A DNA stretch of 40,463 bases from a virus: the IMG/VR virus record IMGVR_UViG_3300042518_001057, positions 1 through 40,463 of that record; one strand, written 5' to 3'. Numbering within the stretch: the stretch's first letter is position 1; each line of letters starts with the position of its first letter. The translations under genes and the position numbers were made by a program. Below the pieces are notes generated by a model. The model did not search any database and was not told the DNA's origin. It was given only the letters and a program-made list of their open reading frames with translations. Shown in pieces: positions 6,878 to 7,133 of the stretch.

Positions 6878-7087
6878 TCATTCCCTTTCGTTTCTTGTTT
6901 CGTTCAAGACCCTTTCCCCATCCTCCCGCAGCATCGCCCGCCATACCTCGCGCCGATGGATCGACACGCTATCCGGCGCCTCAATGCCGATTCGCACCGT
7001 GTCGCCGGTAATCCCGCCGACTACGATTTCAACGTCAAGCCCAGGCAACACGATCGCCTCGCCTTCCCTGCGCCGAAGCCACAACAT
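6878..7087 (-). CDS. csrA: CsrA/RsmA-family RNA-binding regulator
   Basis: The 69 residues align along the whole length of CsrA: MLWLRRREGEAIVLPG, then VEIVVGGITGDTVRIGIEAP and DSVSIHRREVW. The two RNA-contact residues known in E. coli CsrA, Leu4 and Arg44, are both kept (L4 and the first Arg of HRRE). The C-terminal helix is a little longer than usual. CsrA dimers bind GGA motifs in hairpin loops and ribosome sites and usually block translation. The start at 7087 has AAGGGAATTC directly upstream. A perfect hairpin with GGA in its loop precedes it, a layout that suggests autoregulation. It is followed one base later by the Sak4-like gene. Confidence 0.9.
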   Translation of the reverse strand: MLWLRRREGEAIVLPGLDVEIVVGGITGDTVRIGIEAPDSVSIHRREVWRAMLREDGERVLNETRNERE

Positions 7088-7091
7088 GAAT

Positions 7092-7133
7092 TCCCTTTCG
7101 TGATTGACCGGCGGCATTCCGTTGCCGCCGGTC
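7092..7133 (-). promoter_or_regulatory. csrA leader: GGA-loop hairpin plus GGA in the ribosome site
   Basis: On the transcribed strand GACCGGCGGC (7133-7124) pairs perfectly with GCCGCCGGTC (7115-7106), leaving the loop AACGGAAT. The GGA in that loop (7120-7118) and the GGA inside AAGGGAATTC (7094-7092) are 26 nt apart. A GGA presented in a loop plus one in the Shine-Dalgarno is the classical CsrA-repressed leader. Autoregulation is inferred from this layout. Confidence 0.7.

Follow-up and report, generated by a model that had tools for sequence, protein, structure and literature searches.

A conserved leader of ANGGA hairpins ahead of a phage csrA gene, a likely platform for autoregulation

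The csrA gene and the early operon

The window, that is, the whole 40,463-base stretch of DNA analysed here, is a virus contig with tail, head, portal and terminase genes. On its minus strand, an early operon runs from a sigma-70-like promoter (TTGACA-N18-TAGTAT, 7906–7935, 10 of 12 matches), with similar elements upstream in relatives, through a gene for a small HTH-like protein (7542–7760), a conserved upstream ORF (7138–7560) and csrA (7087–6878) to a Sak4-like AAA_24 ATPase gene (5962–6876; PF13479, 161 bits; phrog_124, E 8e-44) and further genes, including that of a replication initiation protein (4133–3204). The HTH-like character of the first gene product was read from its sequence; the protein has homologues in L102, L105 and L114 and no Pfam or PHROG match. 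The start codon of the upstream ORF is uncertain, and the ORF was traced by tblastn across eight related contigs. Adjoining the operon promoter, a divergent DNA methyltransferase gene (N6_N4_Mtase) occupies positions 7944–9062 of the plus strand; its PHROG alignment, of residues 22–361 to profile positions 122–352, suggests an insertion of ~100 residues.

The csrA gene comprises 69 codons and a TGA stop, and its product is a true member of the CsrA/RsmA family of RNA-binding proteins as judged by sequence comparison: it matches the Pfam profile PF02599 (CsrA) with 65.2 bits (E 5e-18; cut-off 27) over profile positions 1–50 of 53, as well as the PHROG of CsrA-like regulators and, in phmmer searches, solved CsrA/RsmE chains. 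The earlier note had recognised a 69-residue CsrA that keeps Leu4 and Arg44, and both RNA-contact residues are indeed present and invariant in the A1 and A4 alignments, the equivalent of E. coli R44 being numbered R45 in the phage protein owing to a one-residue insertion. The AlphaFold2 monomer, a model of low confidence (pLDDT 63.5), has five strands followed by a helix, in the expected order, and the best Foldseek matches of this model are CsrA/RsmE, with weak E-values. The protein is at most 49% identical to the copies in cultured phages and is a candidate binder of ANGGA RNA.

The start codon of the Sak4-like ATPase gene lies one base past the csrA stop codon. From this arrangement the earlier note derived coupled translation of the two genes. 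A csrA/AAA-ATPase junction recurs in relatives, including those with an ATPase of another subfamily; the coupling itself is plausible.

ANGGA hairpins in the csrA leader

Between the upstream ORF and csrA, the minus strand holds a stem-loop, GACCGGCGGC-AACGGAAT-GCCGCCGGTC (7133–7106; site B). Here, the earlier note had reported a perfect 10-bp hairpin with GGA in its loop (AACGGAAU), and the inverted repeat is exact, reaching 11 bp with an A-U closing pair beneath the ACGGAA hexaloop. The GGA in the Shine-Dalgarno (SD) sequence, AAAGGGAATTC, upstream of the csrA ATG was likewise found as described, 26 nt from the GGA of the loop. By itself, this second GGA is weak evidence because the downstream ATPase gene has an identical SD, AAAGGGAA. 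When 113 nt were folded, the site B hairpin appeared in both the minimum-energy and the centroid structures (z −2.8).

Two further ANGGAN hairpins had been missed. Site A, CCGCG-AGGGAT-CGCGG (7157–7172, minus strand), lies within the 3' end of the upstream ORF, and site M, tggc-AGGGAC-gcta (7139–7152, minus strand), a weak hairpin of 3–4 bp, overlaps the stop codon of that ORF. The SD region itself (GAA-AGGGAA-TTC, 7088–7099, minus strand) could form a fourth ANGGAN hexaloop on 3 bp that covers the SD. The leader thus contains four regularly spaced ANGGA motifs, each foldable as an ANGGAN hexaloop (5, 4, 11 and 3 bp), and a fifth that is unstructured. Farther upstream, the operon 5' leader carries a hairpin with a pentaloop, GTGGCGGC-ACGGA-GCCGCCGC (7835–7855, minus strand), a possible extra CsrA site with an imperfect counterpart in G001 that has an AUGGA loop.

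These hairpins exceed chance. Dinucleotide shuffling of the 160-nt leader, repeated 20,000 times, gave an ANGGAN hexaloop on a good stem in 70 cases, a stem of at least 10 bp in 2, and two or more good ANGGAN hairpins in none. The 120-nt leader holds five ANGGA motifs, where the mean per 120 nt is 0.45. Of 4,035 sliding windows along the genome, only 4 contain as many, and these all fall on the csrA leader, where ANGGA is thus denser than anywhere else on the transcribed strand of the window. Additional ANGGAN hairpins at 35756, 26799 and 10861, in coding or unclear context, were not used.

Several ANGGAN hairpins in series recall RsmZ-type arrays, and the leader could conceivably act as a CsrB/RsmZ-like decoy, titrating host CsrA whether or not csrA is also autoregulated. 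We regard this as quite improbable, given that the sites number only four or five and sit on an mRNA immediately ahead of csrA and its SD, and that neither a separate small RNA nor a terminator was seen at the leader.

The site B hairpin occurs once in the window, so a repeat element was rejected, as was a terminator, since the hairpin is not followed by a U-run and none was called. An Rfam scan found no known RNA family at the csrA leader; a sub-threshold match to CcsR1 on the other strand (5908–5984) was regarded as chance.

Leaders in related phages

The relatives compared are csrA-carrying phage contigs of one clade, retrieved by IMG/VR scans, with 52–90% amino acid identity. In the IMG/VR scan for site B, the hairpin was found only before csrA of this clade, in five stretches. 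The earlier note had proposed checking whether the leader hairpin is conserved in related phages: a hairpin occupies the equivalent place in L013/L014, L015, L016–L019 and L022, so that site B is present in eight clade leaders, the window included. Across these leaders, the loop is always ANGGAN (ACGGAA, AAGGAA, ACGGAU or AUGGAC), and 7 of the 11 stem pairs have changed on both sides among five distinct sequences, that of L022 being almost wholly different. In the alignment, made by hand on the GGA as ungapped 28-mers, 94.5% of the cells are paired, compared with 76.5% in shuffles, and slid or shuffled controls fare far worse than the real stems; the independent lineages are few, with about four stem-distinct leaders. 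A strong hairpin is found in 7 of 10 distinct clade leaders, the window excluded, against 0.008 expected per leader, an expectation drawn from the rest of the clade loci.

The other sites are conserved to different degrees. All eight leaders have GGA at nearly fixed positions (about −80, −60 and −34), and most have an additional GGA near the SD. Site M is an equally spaced ANGGAN in 8 of 8 leaders, and in the core of site A, GANGGATC, only the N varies across the eight-leader alignment. The codon phase of site A in L022 differs from that in L013; its retention across codon phases argues for selection on the RNA, with an indel as the alternative. The SD site has a counterpart in L016–L019 (cga-AAGGAN-ucg) and is not present as such in L013, L015 and L022: in L013 the GGA is found at the start codon, and the SDs of L015 and L022 lack an ANGGA. 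By cluster count, the csrA leader alone ranks first among the sense-strand ANGGA clusters in the window, G002, G008 and G003, and it shares first place in G001.

A G+C-rich hairpin that sits between genes might also be a general intercistronic element, such as a terminator, an RNase barrier or a translational spacer, with an incidental GGA in its loop, and L031 does have, ahead of its csrA, a terminator-like hairpin whose loop contains GGA. The invariably ANGGAN loop, kept in every lineage though the stems change, speaks against such an element, as do the absence of both a U-run and a called terminator at the leader and the finding that other hexaloop types are not so enriched in the same contigs; we therefore consider this reading very improbable. 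The L031 hairpin (1180–1216; GCCAGCCGGCC-AAGGAC-GGCCGGCTGGC-TTTTTT) places its ANGGAN loop in a structure seven bases before the csrA ATG and is possibly a CsrA-responsive terminator, or a product of chance.

Three more divergent relatives, L020, L021 and L125, keep csrA and have no ANGGA in the preceding 120 nt. Loss of the loop GGA from relatives that retain the gene is what the earlier note had named as grounds for abandoning autoregulation, and such loss has literally occurred. It does not refute the idea because the csrA operon of these relatives has an ANGGA cluster in its 5' leader: ~0.7 kb upstream of csrA, this leader is the unique densest sense-strand cluster in G005 (L020) and G006 (L021) and the second densest in L125. 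G004 (L022) has three ANGGA sites in each of its csrA and operon leaders, the three in the csrA leader being not unusually dense by cluster count. In all nine contigs compared, the presumed csrA transcript carries ANGGA sites upstream of the gene, a pattern that favours feedback on the csrA operon as judged from these sequences, although the operon leaders were compared only once the loss of the proximal array was known, so that the comparison is not independent.

Proposed circuit and known systems

We consider it likely, on comparative grounds, that the leader (about 7175–7088, minus strand) offers a CsrA-family dimer several binding sites, through which the phage CsrA represses its own synthesis and limits that of the adjacent ATPase. 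Under this model, CsrA made from the early replication/recombination operon would bind the strong ANGGAN hairpin at site B and from there be delivered to, or bridge to, the SD site, while sites A and M would take up additional dimers; ribosome entry would be blocked by the bound protein, and csrA would thus restrain both its own translation and, one base further on, that of the ATPase gene. Such a layout has precedents: Csr proteins have the highest affinity for A(N)GGAX when it forms a hexaloop immediately atop a stem, stem-borne ANGGAN is a high-affinity RsmE/CsrA site, the N of ANGGA is variable in the CsrA literature, and a strong upstream site can recruit a Csr dimer to a weaker SD site (PMC4005645). 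The proposal of the earlier note that csrA limits its own translation gains support from the conserved loops, covarying stems, spacing and substitute operon-leader cluster. Against autorepression, the 11-bp G+C-rich stem exceeds the stems of at most four pairs that are typical of CsrA SELEX winners, a GGA is common to ordinary SDs, and L020, L021 and L125 have no proximal array.

We infer that the ligand is the phage protein, either in place of host CsrA or together with it, and that binding, repression and ATPase coupling follow as proposed. The host is probably a planctomycete, because both the terminase and the bacterial csrA relatives match Planctomycetota genomes. The terminase (38167–40374, minus strand) has relatives at 50–59% identity in many of these genomes, with matches in 54 of 392 and identities of up to 58–59% over most of its length, and is about 30% identical to terminases of cultured phages over half its length. 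It points to a group of planctomycete phages or prophages that is widespread and apparently little described. Eight of nine bacterial csrA relatives, from a scan with short query stretches, come from Planctomycetota metagenome-assembled genomes (MAGs). Among the 20 genomes listed, no csrA was found within 45 kb of a close terminase on the same contig, so that csrA is not general to the wider phage family. Hosts of this kind usually have CsrA of their own: csrA was found in 17 of the 20 terminase-positive Planctomycetota genomes searched, and G012, an Isosphaeraceae MAG, contains 13 CsrA-family matches.

The ANGGA motif is common to CsrA proteins of different origin, and with such hosts the leader might be read mainly by host CsrA, which would tie the early operon to the state of the host or keep the phage repressed. 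We deem this unlikely: the arrays share an operon with the phage csrA, and an operon-leader cluster where the proximal array is lost fits feedback. No array-bearing phage without csrA was found, but the relatives were collected via csrA, which makes this no fair test. The suggestion of the earlier note that csrA reprogrammes host metabolism or motility found no support in the sequences examined. Just before position 6001 in L099 and L100, a Planctomycetota chromosomal csrA has its SD in an ANGGAN hexaloop (gcata-AAGGAG-tatgc), which suggests self-regulation in bacteria too.

The autoregulatory circuit could extend to a second target, the gene of a small secreted Cys-containing protein in the early operon (2582–2881, minus strand), about 3–4.5 kb downstream of csrA. 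The protein has a signal-peptide-like start, a conserved CC motif and no Pfam or convincing PHROG match, and is present in at least five related contigs (the window, G001, G003, G004 and G006). In three of these five genomes, its leader folds into an ANGGAN hairpin: 7 bp in G003; 7 bp in G004, with the SD in the loop and the start codon in the 3' arm; and 5 bp in G006, with the SD in the loop. The window and G001 have no more than a weak ACGGA hairpin of 3 bp at the SD. Across the early region, whose bounds were set after the data had been seen, 23 of 324 motifs form ANGGAN hairpins, compared with 8 of 505 elsewhere and about 1% for most control loops; 13 of the 23 are csrA leaders, and the remaining 10 of ~296 are only about twofold above background. 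These hairpins hint at a small phage CsrA regulon that includes the secreted-protein gene. The wider regulon is a hypothesis because the enrichment outside csrA leaders is only about twofold and the early region was bounded post hoc. That the Csr circuit is contained within the phage, with CsrA dedicated to the early operon, through either the csrA array or that of the operon leader, and to the small secreted protein, is a tentative proposal, to which we give somewhat less than an even chance. If true, an RNA-binding protein, and not only a DNA-binding repressor, times early phage genes.

Most likely, going by the comparative evidence, the virus meters its own early genes through its CsrA. Genes of the csrA/rsm family, such as rsmM of P. 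aeruginosa phages, are known from cultured phages; a 2020 survey counted csrA in 30 of 2517 phages and called for tests of whether phage and plasmid csrA matters to its carriers (PMC7366521). For the role of csrA in phages and plasmids, the sequence here offers a target, the phage's own mRNA, and the covarying hairpin, with the operon-leader cluster of the relatives, yields a specific and cheap prediction: binding and autorepression, abolished by mutation of the GGA. The phage group, moreover, probably infects Planctomycetota, whose phage biology is little known. Although phage csrA is already known, we found no description in open-licence papers of a conserved self-targeting leader of a phage csrA. 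Of 72 other distinct csrA loci from phages and bacteria, only 3 have a strong ANGGAN leader hairpin within 150 nt. An ANGGA loop of 5 or 6 nt with a fair stem, within 60 nt, is present at 7 of these 72 against 1.2 expected, and csrA may be self-targeting elsewhere too.

The present gene resembles the csrA/rsm genes of cultured phages in being a CsrA-family gene in a tailed phage (PMC7366521), and the plasmid regulator RsmQ in being a CsrA homologue of a mobile element; RsmQ recognises AnGGA in hairpin loops and, unlike the phage gene, whose sites seen are in its own operon, has been shown to alter host behaviour (PMC9928087). As in iraD, the putative CsrA sites lie near an upstream ORF and downstream translation would be coupled, whereas CsrA does not directly block the iraD initiation region (PMC5574718) and the phage leader has an SD-proximal ANGGA. 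A strong upstream hairpin paired with a weaker SD site, 26 nt apart in the phage, also parallels glgC repression (PMC7652899), although here the target is csrA itself and there are the extra sites A and M. The closest layout is that of E. coli csrA, which, in the account of Yakhnin 2011 given in PMC7652899, is autoregulated through four leader sites, one of them on the SD. The phage leader likewise has four putative sites with one on the SD; unlike its E. coli counterpart, it is phage-borne within an early replication/recombination operon, the 3' end of the upstream ORF contributes two of its sites, and its main site is a long covarying hairpin.
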